Of a stretch of 64,000 bases of DNA, positions 3,344 through 35,611 are shown in pieces; the stretch's first letter is position 1, and every line of letters starts with the position of its first letter. Origin of the DNA: Algoriella xinjiangensis (GTDB lineage Bacteria > Bacteroidota > Bacteroidia > Flavobacteriales > Weeksellaceae); assembly GCF_900115015.1 (NCBI RefSeq), contig NZ_FOUZ01000009.1, positions 62,001-126,000 of the forward strand, read 5' to 3'. The notes below the pieces were generated by a model. The model saw nothing but the letters and a program-made list of their open reading frames with translations, ran no database searches and was not told the origin of the DNA. Made by a program: the position numbers and the translations under genes.

Positions 3344-4585
3344 ATGGGAAAAGAAAAAACAAAAAAGAAAAAACATCTTGATCTTCCAGATGGTTCTTTA
3401 GAAAAAAGTACAATTACCTTAAACTTAGGACCAACACACCCTGCGACGCATGGAGTTTTTCAAAATATTTTAGAGATTGATGGTGAAATCATCAAATCTG
3501 CTGTTCCTACAGTTGGTTACATTCACCGTGCTTTCGAAAAAATTGCCGAACGCAAACCATTGTACCAAATAACACCACTTACCGATCGATTAAACTATTG
3601 TTCGGCACCGTTAAACAACTTAGGTTGGCACATGACGGTTGAGAAATTTGTTGGAATTGAAGTTCCAAAACGTGTTTCTTATTTGCGTGTTATTATTATG
3701 GAATTGGCTCGTGTAGCAGATCATATCGTGTGTAATTCGATTATGGGAGTTGATACAGGAGCATTTACAGGATTCCTATATATGATGAAATACCGTGAGT
3801 TGGTATATGAGATTTACGAAGAAATTTGTGGTTCTCGTCTTACAACAAATATCGGTCGTATTGGTGGTTTTGAACGTGATTTTTCTGACGTAGCTTGGGA
3901 AAAAATTAATCGTTTTGTAACCGAATTCCCAGATGTTTTAACAGAATTCAATAACCTATTTTTACGAAACCGTATTTTTATGGATCGTACACAAGGAGTT
4001 GGAGGAATTTCTGCAGAACGCGCCTTAAATTATGGTTTTACAGGACCTAATTTACGTGCAGCAGGAGTAGATTATGATGTGCGTGTAGCAAAACCATATT
4101 CTCGTTACGAAGAATTTGATTTCGAAATTCCAGTTGGTACAACAGGAGATTGTTATGACAGATTCTTGGTTCGTAACCAAGAAATGTGGCAAAGTATGAA
4201 CATTATCAAACAAGCAATCGAAAAAATTAATGCATTAGAAGGTGAAGAAGCAACACAATATCATGCCGATGCACCAGATTTCTATTTGCCACTAAAGAAA
4301 GACGTTTATACAAAAATGGAAGCGTTAATCTATCACTTCAAAATTATTATGGGAGAGGTAGATATACCAAAAGGAGAAATTTATAATTCTATAGAAGCTG
4401 CAAATGGCGAATTAGGTTATTATTTTATTTCTGATGGTGGGCGTTCGCCTTATCGTTTACATTTCCGTAGACCTTGTTTCATTTATTATCAAGCTTATCC
4501 AGAATTAATCGAAGGATCAATGATCTCTGACGCCATTATTACAATGAGTAGTCTTAATTTGATTGCTGGAGAATTAGATGCTTAA
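3344..4585 (+). CDS. nuoD: NADH-quinone oxidoreductase subunit D (NuoD)
   Basis: 49-kDa-type subunit of complex I that, with NuoB, forms the quinone-binding site. It descends from the large subunit of NiFe hydrogenase. The N-terminal GPTHPATHG motif (about residues 29-37) carries the quinone-site histidine. Other family blocks are GYIHRAFEK, RIGGFERDFS and the C-terminal SLNLIAGELDA. Its 413 residues match stand-alone NuoD. The Lys-rich N-terminal extension (about residues 2-15) is a lineage feature with no known role. Confidence 0.97.
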   Translation: MGKEKTKKKKHLDLPDGSLEKSTITLNLGPTHPATHGVFQNILEIDGEIIKSAVPTVGYIHRAFEKIAERKPLYQITPLTDRLNYCSAPLNNLGWHMTVEKFVGIEVPKRVSYLRVIIMELARVADHIVCNSIMGVDTGAFTGFLYMMKYRELVYEIYEEICGSRLTTNIGRIGGFERDFSDVAWEKINRFVTEFPDVLTEFNNLFLRNRIFMDRTQGVGGISAERALNYGFTGPNLRAAGVDYDVRVAKPYSRYEEFDFEIPVGTTGDCYDRFLVRNQEMWQSMNIIKQAIEKINALEGEEATQYHADAPDFYLPLKKDVYTKMEALIYHFKIIMGEVDIPKGEIYNSIEAANGELGYYFISDGGRSPYRLHFRRPCFIYYQAYPELIEGSMISDAIITMSSLNLIAGELDA

Positions 4586-17673: not shown

Positions 17674-18249
17674 GTGAATTTATTTGTCCTAAATAGAAAA
17701 AGCAAAGAAGAACTTTTGGTCGATCGACTAAAAAAGAACGATGCTTTGGCGCAAAAAGAACTCTATCAACAATCGTCCAAAAAGATGCTAAGTGTTTGTA
17801 GAAGTTATATAGAAGACATGCATTATGCAGAAGATTGTATGATTAACGGTTTTTGTAAAGTATTTAATCATATTCAGAAATTTCAAAATAAAGGAAGTTT
17901 TGAAGGTTGGGTACGACGTATTATGGTGAACGAATGTTTAACATTTTTACGCTCAAATAAAACATTGATTTATGTGGATGATAATAGAATTGCTGATTAT
18001 GATGAGGTGGACGATGAAGTAGATAACGAGTGGTTAGATTTTAATGTACAAGAAGTGTTAGATCAACTTTCGGAGCCGTACAGATTGGTTTTTAATCTTC
18101 ATATACTCGAAGATTATTCGCACCAAGAAATTGCAGAGATGCTGAATATTTCGGTATCAACAAGTAAAACACAATTGTTTAGAGCAAAGGCGAAACTGAA
18201 AGAAATTGTTTTATCGCAAAAGAAAAAAAGAAATGAAAAAGAAGGATAA
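17674..18249 (+). CDS. ECF-type RNA polymerase sigma-70 factor
   Basis: This 191-residue protein has sigma-70 regions 2 and 4 only. Region 2 lies at about residues 24-95 (AEDCMINGFCKVFNHI, then FEGWVRRIMVNECL). Region 4 is a helix-turn-helix at about 130-182 (YRLVFNLHILEDYSHQEIAEML, then SVSTSKTQLFRAKAKL). The start is a GTG; no in-frame ATG lies nearby. It overlaps the next gene, a membrane anti-sigma-like protein, by 17 bp, so the two are translationally coupled. A barrel gene follows. The second sigma factor at 33191-33748 is a paralogue with the same region 2 and region 4 patterns. Confidence 0.93.
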   Translation: MNLFVLNRKSKEELLVDRLKKNDALAQKELYQQSSKKMLSVCRSYIEDMHYAEDCMINGFCKVFNHIQKFQNKGSFEGWVRRIMVNECLTFLRSNKTLIYVDDNRIADYDEVDDEVDNEWLDFNVQEVLDQLSEPYRLVFNLHILEDYSHQEIAEMLNISVSTSKTQLFRAKAKLKEIVLSQKKKRNEKEG

Positions 18250-18892
18250 TATATCAAAACATATTTTTAATGAATTGGAGCAGCGAGAGCTAAATCCGTC
18301 GCATGATGCATGGGACAGAATACAAGCTCGTATGGATGTGGCGCCAATTCAGCAACCGCAATCCAATTTCAAATGGTGGTTGTCTGCCGCTGTTGTAGCC
18401 ATGTTTACGGTTTCTGCGTCGGTGTTTTTATATATCAATCAAACAGATACAAATGTAGAAGTTGTTCATCAACCAACGCAAAATAATACAGATTCATCAA
18501 TCGAAAAACAAGATGAAATTGTAGATAAGCATACAGATGAGTTGGCGAATAACGAGAAAATTGATTCGGCGAGAAAAGTAGAAGAAATACAACCAAAAGC
18601 AGAAAAACAAGTTGTACAAAAAGGAAAAGTACAAATTGCTGTAAACAAAGAAATGAATCAAGTTGAATTATCAATTCCGAAAGCAGCGTCTGTTACAGAG
18701 AAAAAAGAGATAATCAAAGAAGATTTAATTCCGAAGAAATCATTTGTTGCCAATAACAGTTTAGATTCTATCAAAAAACTAAAGAAGAAAAAGAATTTTG
18801 TTGATCCAAATATGTTGTTGTATTCAATAGAGAATAAAGAAAATTTAAAAGAGTCAAATCAATCGCGCGTAGTTTCTATTGGCTTCAATTAA
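18233..18892 (+). CDS. Single-pass membrane anti-sigma-like protein paired with the ECF sigma factor
   Basis: The ATG at 18233 is preferred to an upstream in-frame start, giving 219 residues. The first 45 or so residues are cytoplasmic and carry the motif P-S-H-DAW-D-R-I-Q-A-R-M-D. One transmembrane helix follows (WWLSAAVVAMFTVSASVFLYI). The remaining 150 residues are periplasmic, low-complexity, rich in Lys, Glu, Gln and Asn. The DAW-x-x-I-Q motif and topology recur at the N-terminus of the protein at 31837-33204, which is also encoded right after a sigma gene. There is no zinc HCC motif, so this is not a classical ZAS anti-sigma factor. Anti-sigma function is inferred from position and topology. 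Confidence 0.75.
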   Translation: MKKKDNISKHIFNELEQRELNPSHDAWDRIQARMDVAPIQQPQSNFKWWLSAAVVAMFTVSASVFLYINQTDTNVEVVHQPTQNNTDSSIEKQDEIVDKHTDELANNEKIDSARKVEEIQPKAEKQVVQKGKVQIAVNKEMNQVELSIPKAASVTEKKEIIKEDLIPKKSFVANNSLDSIKKLKKKKNFVDPNMLLYSIENKENLKESNQSRVVSIGFN

Positions 18893-18923
18893 TTAACCAT
18901 TTTACTGTTAAAATAACACGATT

Positions 18924-19964
18924 ATGATAAAAAAACTTATCGTAGCAGGATTACTATGTTTGTCGGCTACATCACTATATGCTCAGAAATTTACATTTGA
19001 TTTAAACGAAAAATCTAACGATAAAATAAGCCCAATTGTCCGCGATCAGATTAGCGAATTTACATTAGTTATTCGTCAAATAGTACAAGAAGAAAAAAAA
19101 GCAATGGAGAAAAAAATTGCTGAAGTAGACAAAGATTTGGCTGATGGTAAGCTAAATTCGAGCGAAGCAACTGCAAAAAAAGAAGCGTTGGCAAATGTAT
19201 ATTCTGGCTCAATAAATGAGCGTATTCAGGAAGTTAATTTCAATTTAGATGATATTATCAAACAACAAGTTGCTTTTTCTATCATGAATGGTGAAGATCC
19301 AATAACTCCGAAAACGCAGCAAGAAGCCATAAAAAAATACAAAATTAATAATACAATCAACGGTTACGGATCATATGGTTATATGGCGTTTACAGGGAAA
19401 AATAATGATGAGTTGGATAAACACGAAAAATTTTCGAGCAATTTAACACTTGGTTTAGTCTACGAACGCCAATTGTCAATTACAAGTCCAATCAACTTTT
19501 TGGCTGGAGGTTTACTTTCTTGGCGCACTTATCGTTTGGATGATGATATGATGTTTAACCGCGATGGCGACGGAAATGTAGGTCTTGTAAAAAGCGAAAA
19601 ATCGTTAGATAAATCAAAACTTCGTTCGGCTTATTTTATGGTTCCAGTTGGTTTTAAATACAATTTTTCTAAGATTAAACGTGTAACAGATGATTTTACA
19701 TATCGTCCACAATCTAAACATTATATTGCGGCTTACGGCTATGGCGGAACGTTATTATCGTCGAACAATATTGTAAAAGGAGATGGAATCCGAAATAAAA
19801 ATAAAGGAAATTACAATGTAAACAATTTTGTTTACGGAGCCGAAATTACAGTTGGTTTAGGAATTGTAAACCTATTTGTTCGCAAAGATTTTAATAATTA
19901 TTTTAAAGATAATACATTCGATAATCGTAAAATGATTCAGTTTGGCATAAATCTTGGAATATAG
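18924..19964 (+). CDS. Outer-membrane beta-barrel protein with N-terminal coiled coil, in the sigma locus
   Basis: A signal peptide (residues 1-20, ending LYAQ) is followed by a charged helical region likely to form a coiled coil (about residues 35-110). The C-terminal 200 residues have alternating hydrophobic and aromatic residues typical of a small porin-like barrel, ending in a strand MIQFGINLGI. It begins 31 bp after the anti-sigma-like gene with no terminator between, so it is probably the third gene of the sigma operon. I know no specific family name. In the second locus a barrel of this kind is fused to the anti-sigma domain, which suggests that this protein senses for or signals to the sigma factor. 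Confidence 0.7.
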   Translation: MIKKLIVAGLLCLSATSLYAQKFTFDLNEKSNDKISPIVRDQISEFTLVIRQIVQEEKKAMEKKIAEVDKDLADGKLNSSEATAKKEALANVYSGSINERIQEVNFNLDDIIKQQVAFSIMNGEDPITPKTQQEAIKKYKINNTINGYGSYGYMAFTGKNNDELDKHEKFSSNLTLGLVYERQLSITSPINFLAGGLLSWRTYRLDDDMMFNRDGDGNVGLVKSEKSLDKSKLRSAYFMVPVGFKYNFSKIKRVTDDFTYRPQSKHYIAAYGYGGTLLSSNNIVKGDGIRNKNKGNYNVNNFVYGAEITVGLGIVNLFVRKDFNNYFKDNTFDNRKMIQFGINLGI

Positions 19965-31385: not shown

Positions 31386-31823
31386 ATGAAGAAAATTCTA
31401 ATGATCGTTGTGTTATTTTTAGCACAATTTGCGATGGCTCAAATCGATGTAAAATTATCGATTACAAATATTAAGAAGATGAAAGGAAATTTAGCGATTG
31501 AATTTTATCGAAATGTAGAAAATTATACAAAGGGTCAAAATGCGTTTAAAAAACTGTATGTTCCGATAGAGAATATTGACAAATATGAAACAGTTTTTAA
31601 GAATATTGAACCTACTTTTTACGCTGTAAAAGTGTATTTAGATGTGAATAATAACAAGCAATTGGACAAAAGTTTTTTTGGTGTTCGTAAAGAGCCTTAT
31701 GGTTTTTCGACAAATGCAGATCCAATTCTTAGAGAACCAACTTTTGAAGAAGCGAAAGTTGAAATGACCGAAGAAAATAATACAATTGCAATAAAATTGA
31801 ACAATAATAAAGGCGGAGAATAA
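31386..31823 (+). CDS. DUF2141 domain protein, exported
   Basis: A 145-residue protein with a signal peptide (residues 1-18, ending AMAQ) and one DUF2141 domain. The family pattern is clear: AVKVYLDVNNNKQLDKSFFG, then RKEPYGFSTNA. The D-x-N-x-N-x-x-L-D stretch looks like a calcium-binding-like loop. No biochemical role is known for the family. It stands alone; its stop codon lies inside the loop of the following terminator. Confidence 0.88.
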   Translation: MKKILMIVVLFLAQFAMAQIDVKLSITNIKKMKGNLAIEFYRNVENYTKGQNAFKKLYVPIENIDKYETVFKNIEPTFYAVKVYLDVNNNKQLDKSFFGVRKEPYGFSTNADPILREPTFEEAKVEMTEENNTIAIKLNNNKGGE

Positions 31824-31837
31824 TCCGTCTTTTTACT
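31809..31837 (+). terminator. Terminator overlapping the DUF2141 stop codon
   Basis: A 9-bp stem with one G-T wobble (31809-31817 with 31824-31832) is followed by a short T-run. The TAA stop at 31821-31823 is in the loop. It sits between convergent genes. Confidence 0.6.
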
Positions 31838-33204
31838 TAAAATTTTATTGAAAAGCCAAGATTTGCACCTAATAATGATGGATTTTTGGCATCTACATTT
31901 TTTAAAGGATTTAGCATATAACGATAATTTGGTTCAAAATTAAGACTCGTTTTATTCGAAATCATATACTCCAATTTCAAACCTGCATTTGCACTATAAC
32001 TTGTATTGTTTAAGTTAGTTGCTTTTCCAATTTTGAAATCTGTACCCGAAGAATTTACAGAAATTGTATTTTTTGTAACTACATAATAACTTCCACCAGC
32101 TGTTGCCAACACGTTAAATTTATCAAAAGTCAATAATTTATACTCGAGCTCCAAAGGAACTTCGATGTACTGTATTTTTTGCTCCATTTTACTTGCTTCC
32201 GTAGTAATCGCCATAATTGCTTGCGAATTAGCTGCGGAAGAATTTACACGAATATTACTATTATAATTGATGTTATTTGTGTTTTGAGGAGACGCATTTT
32301 CGTGTGTAGATAAAGCTACAATTGCAGTATTTAGCCCAGTGTTTACTTGATTTGTTTGTTGTTCTAAATTAACTTTTGCAATACCAGAACGAATGTTTAA
32401 TTTATCATTTATTTTGAACGAAACTTTTGCACCATAAGCCATTGTTACAGCGTTTTCGATATCATTTTGATTAAATTCATCAGATAAAATAGATTTAGAA
32501 TCTAATAAAACGGATGGATTTACAAAAGAAGAAACTGCAAATTTTGGAGCGGTTTGTTTAATTTCTATTTTATTTTCTTGCTTTTTATTTTGTTCTGCAA
32601 TAGCTAATTCTAGTTCGTTTTCTTTTAAAGTATTTTCCTCATTTTTTGTAATTTCTTCTTTTTTTACATTAGTATGAAGCGATTCTGGAAAGATTTTTTC
32701 AGTAAAATTAGAAGGATTTTTTGTTGCGAAAACATTCGAAAAAATAGCATCATTTGATAATAAATGATCATTCTTCAGATTTATATTTTCAAAATTTTTT
32801 GATTGATATTCTAGATTATTTTCTTTTCCAAAAGCAAATTGATTTACAGAATTTGAACTAGATTTTTCAATATTTTTATCTGCATTAATTTTATTCTCAA
32901 TCGATTTTATTTGATTGAAATCTTTTTCAGTGTTAGAATCAGTTTCTTGCTGATTTTTCTTTTTAGAATGTACAATTTCTGGAGTTTTAATTGAAGAATT
33001 TATCGTGTCATTTTGATAAAAATAATAAACACCAACGCCCAAAACTAAGCACGCAGCAGTAGAACCAATCCAATAAAATAGTGGAATAATTCGCTTCTTT
33101 TTCTCCTTTTCATCTAATTTTTCTTGGATATTTTTCCAAGCATCCAAAGGCGGAGTTTGTGGTTGCGATAGATTATCTTTTATATATTGATCAAACTTTT
33201 TCAT
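31837..33204 (-). CDS. Anti-sigma domain fused to an outer-membrane beta-barrel (predicted dual-membrane-spanning anti-sigma factor)
   Basis: A single 455-residue chain with four parts: a short cytoplasmic N-terminus with P-P-L-DAW-K-N-I-Q-E-K-L-D (about residues 19-31), one transmembrane helix (about 40-65, FYWIGSTAACLVLGVGVYYFY), a long hydrophilic Lys/Asn/Glu-rich linker (about 66-215), and a C-terminal barrel-like region (about 220-455) ending in the typical terminal strand ANLGFSIKF. There is no signal peptide before the helix. The N-terminus matches the anti-sigma-like protein at 18233-18892, and the gene overlaps a sigma gene by 14 bp. The inferred product crosses both membranes and could pass outer-membrane events to the sigma factor. 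Proteins of this design (Dma type) have been described in Bacteroides. Confidence 0.75.
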   Translation of the reverse strand: MKKFDQYIKDNLSQPQTPPLDAWKNIQEKLDEKEKKKRIIPLFYWIGSTAACLVLGVGVYYFYQNDTINSSIKTPEIVHSKKKNQQETDSNTEKDFNQIKSIENKINADKNIEKSSSNSVNQFAFGKENNLEYQSKNFENINLKNDHLLSNDAIFSNVFATKNPSNFTEKIFPESLHTNVKKEEITKNEENTLKENELELAIAEQNKKQENKIEIKQTAPKFAVSSFVNPSVLLDSKSILSDEFNQNDIENAVTMAYGAKVSFKINDKLNIRSGIAKVNLEQQTNQVNTGLNTAIVALSTHENASPQNTNNINYNSNIRVNSSAANSQAIMAITTEASKMEQKIQYIEVPLELEYKLLTFDKFNVLATAGGSYYVVTKNTISVNSSGTDFKIGKATNLNNTSYSANAGLKLEYMISNKTSLNFEPNYRYMLNPLKNVDAKNPSLLGANLGFSIKF

Positions 33205-33748
33205 CTGCGATAGGTTTTAAAAGGGTAAGTTTTTGTTTTAATAAATTTTTTGCTCTAGAGAGATTTGATTTGGAGGTTCCGACTGAAATTTGGAGTAATT
33301 CTGCAATTTCTTGGTGCGAATATTCTTCAAAAATGTAGAGGTTAAAAACTTGCCTATATTGTGGTGGAAGATGTTGTATAGTTTCTAATAGTTGTTGATA
33401 ATCATAATCTTGCGGTAAGTCATCTACTTCATTATCAGTAGTTAATTGAAGATGATTTTCGTAATCGTCAAATGAAATAGTTTTCTTTTTCTTGATTTTT
33501 TCTAAGGACAAATTAATCATAATTCGTTTCATCCATCCTTCAAAAGAACCTTGAAATTTAAATTGGTCTATTTTATTAAAAATAATAACAAAACCCTCTT
33601 GAAAAGTATCTTGCGCGTCTTCGTAATTTTCTGCATAACGAAGACATATCGAGAATAAAATAGATGAAAACTGAAGATAAATTTCTTCTTGTGCCTTTCT
33701 ATTTTTTTCTTGACAGCTTTTGATTACATTTTCAAGAGAGTCATTCAA
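33191..33748 (-). CDS. ECF-type RNA polymerase sigma-70 factor
   Basis: A 185-residue sigma factor with regions 2 and 4. Region 2 has YEDAQDTFQEGFVIIFNKI and FEGWMKRIMINLSL; region 4 has YRQVFNLYIFEEYSHQEIAELL and SVGTSKSNLSRAKNLL. It resembles the sigma factor at 17674-18249 throughout, so the two are paralogues. It lies 15 bp after a lipoprotein gene and overlaps the fused anti-sigma/barrel gene by 14 bp. An AT-rich acidic linker joins its two regions. Confidence 0.93.
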   Translation of the reverse strand: MNDSLENVIKSCQEKNRKAQEEIYLQFSSILFSICLRYAENYEDAQDTFQEGFVIIFNKIDQFKFQGSFEGWMKRIMINLSLEKIKKKKTISFDDYENHLQLTTDNEVDDLPQDYDYQQLLETIQHLPPQYRQVFNLYIFEEYSHQEIAELLQISVGTSKSNLSRAKNLLKQKLTLLKPIADEKV

Positions 33749-33763
33749 AATTTAATTTGTCTA

Positions 33764-34210
33764 TTATTGTGCTTTGATATCTAAAACGATAGAATCGTAT
33801 TTTGGAGATGTACTACCTTCTTTATTACCTGTCCAGAATTTTAATGTATATTCACCAGCATCTTTAGGAGTAAACTTTAATGTTTTTGTTTCTAAAGTGA
33901 TACCTTCTGTACAACTTGTACTATTAGATTGTTTCCCATATACACCAATGTTATGTTTAAAAGCAGTACTACCTTGTAATAAACTAAATTGAATAAAATC
34001 TTGACAAGAATTAGTTTTTTGATAAGTTACATGCACATTTGTTGTTTTACCAGCTGGCATTATTGAATCCTGATTAACTTCAATCTTAGTTGTTGGAAAA
34101 AATCCAAAAGTAGAATAATCATTGTCATCATCATTATTTAAACAGCTTGTTGTTGCTAATCCTAAAAAGCCTACAAAAGCTAAAGCGCTTAATCTTTTTA
34201 CTAATTTCAT
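33764..34210 (-). CDS. Lipoprotein, first gene of the second ECF operon
   Basis: A 148-residue protein with a lipoprotein signal (residues 1-22) and lipobox ATTSC; Cys23 is the lipidated residue. The mature start CLNNDDDND is acidic, like the lipoprotein export signal that sends flavobacterial lipoproteins to the cell surface. The remainder is a single beta-rich domain with three Cys, ending in a PKDAGEYTLKFWTG strand pattern like Ig-like folds. The family is not recognised. Its position before the sigma and anti-sigma genes suggests that it is part of the sensor or the main target of the regulon. Confidence 0.8.
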   Translation of the reverse strand: MKLVKRLSALAFVGFLGLATTSCLNNDDDNDYSTFGFFPTTKIEVNQDSIMPAGKTTNVHVTYQKTNSCQDFIQFSLLQGSTAFKHNIGVYGKQSNSTSCTEGITLETKTLKFTPKDAGEYTLKFWTGNKEGSTSPKYDSIVLDIKAQ

Positions 34211-34238
34211 GGTATGTATTTTATTGTTCTATAAAAGT

Positions 34239-34264
34239 AAGAGTTAGATTTTGTAAATGGTTGC
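34239..34264 (-). promoter_or_regulatory. ECF-type promoter of the lipoprotein/sigma/anti-sigma-barrel operon
   Basis: On the minus strand GCAACC is followed after 11 bp by CTAACTCT, matching the element before the other sigma operon (17622-17647). It ends 29 bp before the lipoprotein ATG. No housekeeping TAnnTTTG box is seen in this spacer. Confidence 0.55.
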
Positions 34265-34310
34265 GTTATAATAAAAAAAGAATTATAAATTTTAACATTT
34301 AGCGAAATTA

Positions 34311-34347
34311 AAAAATCCTTTTAAGCAAATGCTAAAAGGATTTTTTG
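34311..34347 (-). terminator. Terminator after lpxB
   Basis: A 15-bp stem with one bulged A and a short loop, flanked by A- and T-runs, lies about 120 bp after the lpxB stop (minus strand). It shields the ECF operon from lpxB read-through. Confidence 0.8.
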
Positions 34348-34469
34348 TGTTAGAAAAGTTTGTTAACTTTTAAGTTAGGTTAACCTTGTCTAGAAATTAC
34401 CTAATAATATTTTGGCTCTCTCTTTTTGTAAGAGATATATTTTTTAAAAAGGTTGCGTCTACGTATTAA

Positions 34470-35582
34470 TTATTTTTTTAAATCATCAACAATTAAATTC
34501 GCAGTACGCTCCGAAGCGCCAACGCCACCAAGTTTATGATACAATTCTTTGTAATCACTTAATATTTGTGCACGCTTTGGTGTATTCAGAATTAAATTTA
34601 ATTCGTGTTTGATATTCGTATATGTTAACTCGTGTTGTATAAGTTCTTTTACCACTTCTTTATCCATAATTAAATTAACAAGCGAGATAAAACGAATATT
34701 TTTAACCACACGTTTTCCTATTTCGTACGAAATACGATTTCCTTTGTAACAAACAACTTCGGGTACTTTTAATAATGCAGTTTCTAAAGTTGCTGTACCA
34801 GATGTAACCAAGGCTGCATAAGAAATTCTTAATAAATCGTACGTTCTATTTTCGACAATTTTCAAGTCATCTCCTGCAATTTCTTTGTAGTTTTTTATAG
34901 GTTGAGAAGGTGCACCTGCAACCACAAATTGATAATCAGGAAAATCTTTTTGTACCGAAAGCATCAAAGGTAATTTTACTTTAATTTCTTGTGTACGACT
35001 TCCTGGTAAAAGTGCAATTATAGGACGATCATCCAAATTATTATCTTTCCTGAACTTTGCTTCATCTATTTCGGGAAGATTATTTAGCGAATCTAGTAGT
35101 GGATTTCCTACAAAATCAACTTTATAATCATAGCGTTGATAAAACTCTTCTTCAAATGGAAGAATAACAAACATTTTATCAACTACCTTTTTTATTTTAT
35201 GAACACGACCAGTTTTCCAAGCCCAAATTTGAGGCGAAATATAATAGTAAACTTTTATACCAAGTTTCTTTACAAACTCTGCAATTCGTAAATTAAAACC
35301 AGGATAATCGACCAAAATCACTGCGTCTGGTTGATAGGCTTCGATATCTTTTTTAGCAACAGAAATGTTTCCTAAAATTGTTTTCAAATTCATTAAAACT
35401 TCTGCAAAACCCATAAAAGCTAAATCTCGGTAATGTTTTACCAAAGTTCCGCCTTGCGCTTGCATCAAATCTCCACCCCAAAAACGAAATTCGGCTTGAG
35501 GATCTTTCTTTTTTAATTCTTTCATTAAGTTCGAAGCGTGTAAATCGCCCGAAGCTTCACCTGCAATGATATAATATTTCAA
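34470..35582 (-). CDS. lpxB: Lipid-A-disaccharide synthase (LpxB)
   Basis: GT19 glycosyltransferase that joins UDP-2,3-diacylglucosamine and lipid X to make lipid A disaccharide at the inner membrane. Motifs include the N-terminal YYIIAGEASGDLHASNL, YYISPQIWAWKTGR, LLPGSRTQEI and the C-terminal GTATLETALL. Two TTG codons are possible starts. The TTG at 35582 gives the canonical N-terminus (MKYYIIAGEASG). The TTG at 35606 overlaps the -7 box, so it should lie upstream of the transcript start. With 35582 the protein has 370 residues. surE, often adjacent in relatives, is absent. Confidence 0.94.
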   Translation of the reverse strand: MKYYIIAGEASGDLHASNLMKELKKKDPQAEFRFWGGDLMQAQGGTLVKHYRDLAFMGFAEVLMNLKTILGNISVAKKDIEAYQPDAVILVDYPGFNLRIAEFVKKLGIKVYYYISPQIWAWKTGRVHKIKKVVDKMFVILPFEEEFYQRYDYKVDFVGNPLLDSLNNLPEIDEAKFRKDNNLDDRPIIALLPGSRTQEIKVKLPLMLSVQKDFPDYQFVVAGAPSQPIKNYKEIAGDDLKIVENRTYDLLRISYAALVTSGTATLETALLKVPEVVCYKGNRISYEIGKRVVKNIRFISLVNLIMDKEVVKELIQHELTYTNIKHELNLILNTPKRAQILSDYKELYHKLGGVGASERTANLIVDDLKK

Positions 35583-35603
35583 TGGAAATAGTTTTTCTTC
35601 ACA

Positions 35604-35611
35604 CAAAGATA
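35604..35611 (-). promoter_or_regulatory. -7 box (TATCTTTG) for lpxB; decides the start codon
   Basis: Exact TAnnTTTG match on the minus strand, 21 bp upstream of the TTG at 35582. Its position overlaps the alternative TTG at 35606, which argues against that start. Confidence 0.55.

Follow-up and report, generated by a model that had tools for sequence, protein, structure and literature searches.

A predicted Dma/Reo-type anti-sigma factor of Algoriella xinjiangensis, encoded with an ECF sigma factor and a companion lipoprotein behind a predicted private promoter

The locus

The window analysed here is a stretch of 64,000 nucleotides from Algoriella xinjiangensis, in which three genes on the minus strand follow each other in the order lipoprotein, sigma factor, anti-sigma factor. 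An lpxB-like gene (34470-35606) lies upstream of this operon, and a DUF2141 gene (31386-31823), carried by the opposite strand, faces it. The anti-sigma gene had been singled out in an original prediction as encoding a protein that spans both membranes, and its open reading frame is present, with an ATG start codon. The neighbouring sigma gene announced there does encode an ECF sigma factor (Pfam Sigma70_r4_2, 6.6e-19; Sigma70_r2, 4.3e-11), and its stop codon and the ATG of the anti-sigma gene overlap by 14 nt. Its TTG codon, at 33748, is the first possible start of that reading frame, while several relatives have frames starting one or two residues earlier. The features of the operon are as follows, with the basis of each in brackets.

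31837..33204, minus strand: Dma-type anti-sigma factor, 455 aa (ORF, 25 aligned homologues, AlphaFold model)
33085..33204, minus strand: cytoplasmic N-terminal segment of the anti-sigma factor, residues 1-40, with D-A-W-x-x-I-Q, presumed to bind sigma (conservation)
33013..33084, minus strand: predicted inner-membrane helix, residues 41-64 (hydropathy, positive-inside flank, model helix 40-64)
32557..33012, minus strand: predicted periplasmic tether, residues 65-216, rich in N, K, E and S (low identity, low pLDDT)
31840..32556, minus strand: predicted C-terminal outer-membrane beta-barrel, residues 217-455, last residue F (Pfam, VIA-align)
33191..33748, minus strand: presumed cognate ECF sigma factor, 185 aa, TTG start (Pfam, tree)
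33764..34210, minus strand: companion lipoprotein, 148 aa, lipobox Cys23, beta-sandwich 33-145 (model, lipobox, conservation of the three-gene order)

Architecture of the anti-sigma factor

The modular build of the protein (called Dma below) is best read from an alignment of 25 proteins sharing 19-57% identity with the window protein. Mean pairwise identity is 45% over residues 1-40, the best-conserved stretch of the chain, against 32% in the helix, 14% in the tether and 36% in the barrel. Within the N-terminal segment, DAWKNIQ occupies residues 21-27, and the P-x-x-x-W-x-x-I pattern formed by P19, W23 and I26 is invariant, even in homologues of only 19% identity. As had been claimed, the motif is common to a second sigma-linked protein of the window (18236-18892), where it reads DAWDRIQ. 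Sigma-linked anti-sigma factors of differing C-terminal build have this segment in common, and a role in binding sigma is suggested mainly, as far as sequence goes, by this sharing.

The helix at residues 41-64 is preceded by six K/R residues and followed by one, and an excess of K/R ahead of the helix is found in most of the aligned homologues. No A-x-A site occurs at its end in the window protein or in 24 of the 25 aligned sequences. This asymmetry and the missing A-x-A suggest that the anchor stays in place with its N-terminus inside, in agreement with the helix without cleavable signal that had been proposed; it is thus predicted to be a single uncleaved transmembrane helix. That the N-terminus is instead an ordinary signal sequence, leaving a mature product found only in the outer membrane, is very improbable: there is a hydrophobic segment near the N-terminus, and a T-A-A-C stretch resembles a lipobox within the genus, but some 40 conserved residues and the K/R-rich flank precede the helix, A-x-A is missing, and Cys52 is not conserved outside the genus. 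On this conservation pattern, we reject cleavage at the helix, be it by signal peptidase or at a lipobox.

Behind the helix comes the disordered-looking linker of about 150 residues that had been foreseen. Residues 65-190 correspond to 101-148 residues across homologues, so that length is kept at 14% identity, as expected for a disordered spacer; a short conserved helix stands at 198-208. Modelling of the full chain by AlphaFold, which had been suggested as a check, was done from eight sequences and gave a low mean confidence (pLDDT 47.6, pTM 0.41). The model has a helix at 40-64, no structure up to about residue 197 and then the short helix at 198-208, behind which the strands of the barrel occupy 222 to 454; pLDDT is below 50 at residues 12-202, and values of about 70-80 are reached by the best barrel strands alone.

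The C-terminal part matches Pfam OMP_b-brl above cut-off (6.3e-8) and solved structures in Foldseek at 9e-6. VIA-align places it closest to OprF (Z 14.7; 2.6 Å over 130 residues), NspA (14.5), OmpW (13.9) and OmpA (13.4), which argues for an OmpA-type barrel of eight strands. Dma would thus share its barrel with the OmpA transmembrane domain family (Z 13-15), from which it differs in that this barrel is fused to a cytoplasmic anti-sigma segment via an uncleaved membrane helix. The chain terminates in ...FSIKF, the Phe-terminated strand of the original prediction. Homologues of about 549 aa with a tandem double cytoplasmic anti-sigma motif are encoded at loci L071 (1498-3147) and L072 (1384-3030).

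Relation to known Dma and Reo systems

Dual-membrane-spanning anti-sigma factors are defined by Dma1-3 (PMC13088901) and Reo, and their presence in Bacteroides had rightly been noted (PMC9308784, PMC13088901). Dma1/Dma2-Das1/Das2 of Bacteroides thetaiotaomicron have the same anti-sigma segment, inner-membrane helix, disordered tether, barrel and adjacent ECF sigma factor (PMC13088901). Dma2 regulates its own operon, which we count as a further likeness, although this operon carries a DUF4943 gene in place of the window's lipoprotein, and Bacteroides Dma regulons reach PULs and nigD1, whereas the promoter described below stands on one operon only (PMC13088901). B. thetaiotaomicron belongs to a different order of bacteria, and the comparison runs through the published description and Bacteroidales loci. 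Dma1 controls nigD1 and vesiculation (PMC13088901), and EcfO/Reo controls three nigD genes (PMC9308784, PMC13114119). EcfO-Reo of Bacteroides fragilis and Phocaeicola vulgatus likewise consists of a sigma factor followed by a two-membrane-spanning anti-sigma factor (PMC9308784, PMC13114119), and in P. vulgatus the locus tag of a nigD gene (M0N98_03762) is next to those of the pair (03760-03761). It differs in that the NigD protein has two domains and is often divergently encoded, as judged from the Bacteroidales loci compared here, and in its promoter box, which is of the TGCAGTATT type.

All the structural Dma features that can be tested on a sequence are thus found here by prediction, and ORF 31837-33204 is assigned as a flavobacterial Dma/Reo-type anti-sigma factor, of an architecture known from earlier work on Bacteroides and Phocaeicola. 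The original view that such a case is "little explored" applies to the architecture less than was suggested, given EcfO-Reo, Dma1-3 and relatives, some of them partial, in 142 of 197 sampled Bacteroidia genera. Of the linkage to a lipoprotein and a promoter, no description was found in the literature searched. What sets the present locus apart is a lipoprotein that is constantly present and has no sequence relation to NigD, together with the predicted private promoter of the three-gene operon.

The protein was found in all 14 genomes of the genus, and a closer alignment search returned seven related loci, from Empedobacter, Chishuiella and Faecalibacter. In the family, 92 of 197 genomes have matches, many to the N-terminal part only and joined to another C-terminal half. 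A profile search covering the class Bacteroidia matched 222 of 395 genomes, some by one part of the protein only.

In a tree of 54 sigma factors, the partners of fused-barrel, split and VWA-type anti-sigma factors form one group (support 95/83), which stands apart from most other ECF sigma factors of the window's genome. The window's sigma factor falls there with the Dma-linked sigma factors of Bacteroidales (95/83); the subgroup used to define Dma partners is ECF21, the assignment here being to ECF.

The split counterpart lies in the window itself (17674-19964) and occurs in all 14 genomes of the genus. It consists of a sigma factor of the same wider group, an anti-sigma factor of 218-228 aa with the DAW-x-x-I motif, a membrane helix and a tether, and, unlike Dma, a barrel-like protein encoded separately with its own signal peptide. 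The tether is 35% identical among members, and its final 33-residue tail, which is 77% identical and likely docks on the barrel partner, is a further difference from Dma. In Chryseobacterium-like loci (L044, 3379-5718; L045-L047, L050, L052), the sigma factor is accompanied by an anti-sigma factor of about 780-890 aa. The L044 protein, the one scanned in full against Pfam, carries a type IX secretion sorting tail (3e-11) besides a TonB plug domain and a VWA domain, and would apparently be anchored in the membrane on the inside yet addressed to the surface.

The companion lipoprotein

The companion lipoprotein mentioned in the original prediction is real. Within the window's family, each of the 29 loci has its gene directly upstream of the sigma gene. 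In a second family, taken as Flavobacteriaceae, the same three-gene order was found in 7 of 11 loci (L061-L067); L068 has no related lipoprotein gene beside its sigma gene, and L069, L073 and L074 have too little flanking sequence or represent longer paralogues. The lipoprotein profile of the first family matches the proteins of the second at 3e-26 to 3e-19 (960 ORFs); three of the lipoproteins fell outside the lipobox pattern of our script and were identified by eye. In Empedobacter brevis and E. tilapiae, two tandem paralogous lipoproteins precede the sigma-Dma pair (L055, 4525-5439; L059, 4517-5435).

At least two acidic residues stand straight after the lipid-bearing cysteine in all 30 lipoproteins examined. 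In Bacteroidota, acidic residues at this place are a surface-export signal. The same signal has been used elsewhere (PMC9308784, PMC12045153). The AlphaFold model is confident (pLDDT 84, pTM 0.72), with a beta-sandwich at residues 33-145, and the protein is predicted to be a surface-exposed beta-sandwich.

In a Bacteroidales family, true NigD genes (PF17415) stand beside sigma-Dma in 13 of the 26 genomes with a Dma match, where 0.2 were expected and 20,000 simulations never gave more than 3; this position is an association seen here, outside the formal definition of NigD. The NigD, sigma and Dma genes run on one strand as in the window in 5 of the 13, and NigD is divergent in the other 8; in two loci (L129, L134), NigD follows lpxB just as the window's lipoprotein does. 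The flavobacterial ACGCAACC box was not found before Bacteroidales nigD genes, which have a different common box; in several divergent pairs (L121-L123, L140-L149), a TGCAGTATT-type box stands ahead of both nigD and sigma.

We regard it as rather improbable that the companion is a genuine but strongly diverged NigD and not an unrelated substitute. The identical gene order in five Bacteroidales genomes and the adjoining lpxB speak for it, as do the VIA-align ranks 1, 2 and 4, which are NigD-like structures (3qwn, Z 5.8; 4pqx, 5.7; 3k0y, 5.5), although the PDB was found to contain only five NigD-type sequences. However, these matches are weak (Z below 8), and the best one, 101 residues of 3qwn at 3.6 Å, is tied with unrelated Ig-like sandwiches. 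None of 27 members matches NigD_C in Pfam, hhalign aligned the signal peptide alone or, with the mature domains, nothing of use (Prob 0.6), and an hmmsearch of the PDB was negative as well. These negatives rule out calling the lipoprotein a NigD by sequence. Both would be acidic-signal surface lipoproteins with a beta-sandwich, encoded by sigma-Dma, but NigD-like proteins have NigD_N and NigD_C, whereas the companion is a single domain of 148 aa, lacks NigD_N and has no detectable sequence homology to them. It is best described as a positional, and perhaps structural, counterpart of NigD, a shared role being suggested by position and the weak fold match, in place of homology.

Promoters and regulon

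The intergenic region ahead of the lipoprotein gene contains two predicted promoters and a hairpin:

34238..34266, minus strand: predicted ECF promoter, proximal copy, ACGCAACC-N16-TCTTA (distance to the lipoprotein ATG about 55 nt)
34429..34458, minus strand: distal predicted ECF promoter, ACGCAACC motif (alignment, genome motif search)
34310..34346, minus strand: conserved hairpin with T run, resembling an intrinsic terminator, between both promoters (alignments)
34310..34422, minus strand: candidate small RNA under sigma control, running from the distal promoter (presumed start) as far as the terminator-like hairpin

In an alignment of 12 genus loci, every one has the proximal motif, ACGCAACC-N16/17-TCT, ahead of the lipoprotein gene. 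In the form ACGCAACC-N15/17-(CR)TCT it precedes the gene in 31 of 33 loci, 44-92 nt from the start codon, and it is kept even though the upstream neighbour varies by group (lpxB, trmD or recA, judged by sequence). In other genera, the -10 element reads CATCT or CGTCT. A CGTC in this position is typical of ECF sigma factors. A flavobacterial ECF motif with a CGT box has also been published (PMC9723704). The promoter is backed by conservation, and the sigma factor would make use of it; a scan for sigma-70-type promoters yielded no more sites than shuffled sequence and is uninformative here.

A search of the organism's own genome (3.27 Mb) gave exactly two hits with the strict pattern and exactly two with the relaxed one, in both cases between lpxB and the lipoprotein gene, compared with 0 (strict) and 1 (relaxed) for reversed-pattern controls. 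As these two sites both precede the operon, the predicted regulon is one operon, by a search for exact motifs beside which weaker sites may exist, and its sole predicted non-regulatory product is the lipoprotein. Additional matches, one or more per genome, turn up in some sister species; one of them, in genome G005, lies 29 nt before another lipoprotein gene.

The second box is found about 160-190 nt further upstream in eight loci of Empedobacter proper, followed by the hairpin before the proximal promoter. Together, the distal promoter and the hairpin with its T run predict a sigma-dependent transcript of about 110 nt, which makes these eight loci candidates for a small RNA. The hairpin also occurs where the distal promoter is absent and may therefore simply be the lpxB terminator; since its stem is AT-rich, a GC-based terminator scan did not list it. 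No Rfam family matched the promoter region or the candidate RNA.

A possible envelope-stress circuit

Starting from the computed architecture, operon, conservation, promoter and promoter rarity, we propose that the lipoprotein, sigma factor and Dma form a self-contained envelope-stress circuit that releases sigma upon an outer-membrane fault, with the lipoprotein as output (probability about 0.6). Dma would be anchored at both membranes, through its helix in the inner and its OmpA-type barrel in the outer one, and its cytoplasmic end would keep the ECF sigma factor inactive, as the architecture, the gene overlap and the Dma/Reo precedents suggest. A fault in the outer membrane, most likely failed assembly of the barrel or damage to it, would free sigma. 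The freed sigma factor would then transcribe the whole operon from ACGCAACC-N15/17-(CR)TCT, its output being a surface lipoprotein in the place that NigD takes in Bacteroidales, and newly made Dma would reset the switch. The most likely signal is a disturbance of the outer membrane or of barrel assembly, since in P. vulgatus the homologous EcfO-Reo pair ranks among the most induced on exposure to bacteroidetocin A, which inhibits BamA, and to the toxin BcpT (PMC9308784, PMC13114119).

The circuit is equally compatible with a protease-dependent release of sigma, for example by loss of the anti-sigma factor when the barrel is unassembled, and with a protease-free route. A finer version of it, to which we give somewhat less than even odds, is assembly surveillance by proteolysis: the barrel would be an obligate BAM client, and, left uninserted, it would expose Dma to destruction by periplasmic or intramembrane proteases, thereby freeing sigma. 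Spanning two membranes would then test assembly and not transmit a force or a ligand signal. A barrel with its terminal strand is conserved in all 25 aligned homologues, and the response of the homologous EcfO-Reo to bacteroidetocin A points the same way; on the other hand, no protease or cleavage site was identified at Dma, and the homologues at L013, L014 and L028 end in K or in a short tail after the last strand.

Rather improbable is direct transmission, the version put forward in the original prediction, in which an event at the assembled barrel, be it a ligand or the lipoprotein's loss, would shift the tension or conformation of the tether and free sigma without cleavage. It would make sense of a tether conserved in length and not in sequence, and the co-encoded lipoprotein could bind the barrel. 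On general polymer reasoning, however, some 150 disordered residues, which can extend to about 50 nm, should pass force poorly across a periplasm of about 25 nm, and we know of no mechanism for force or ligand transmission along such a tether.

Pushed to its furthest, the proposed circuit would make Dma of Flavobacteriales a private one-operon device whose sole purpose is to put a NigD stand-in on a failing outer membrane or when barrel assembly fails, the Empedobacter sigma factor also making a small RNA as enterobacterial sigma-E does; in this extended form we consider the proposal speculative and rather unlikely.

What the circuit may offer

Two questions, the signal sensed by Dma/Reo systems and the task of NigD proteins, are blurred in Bacteroides, where regulons are large and nigD occurs in several copies. 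In the present case, a sigma factor, its presumed anti-sigma factor and one lipoprotein share an operon that has the only exact promoter matches in the genome, so that single-gene deletions could tell sensor, switch and output apart. The promoter, being conserved, is a ready reporter and a route to targets across Flavobacteriales. Finally, the presence of a lipoprotein gene by sigma-Dma in two orders suggests that the production of a surface lipoprotein is an old and central output of these systems.
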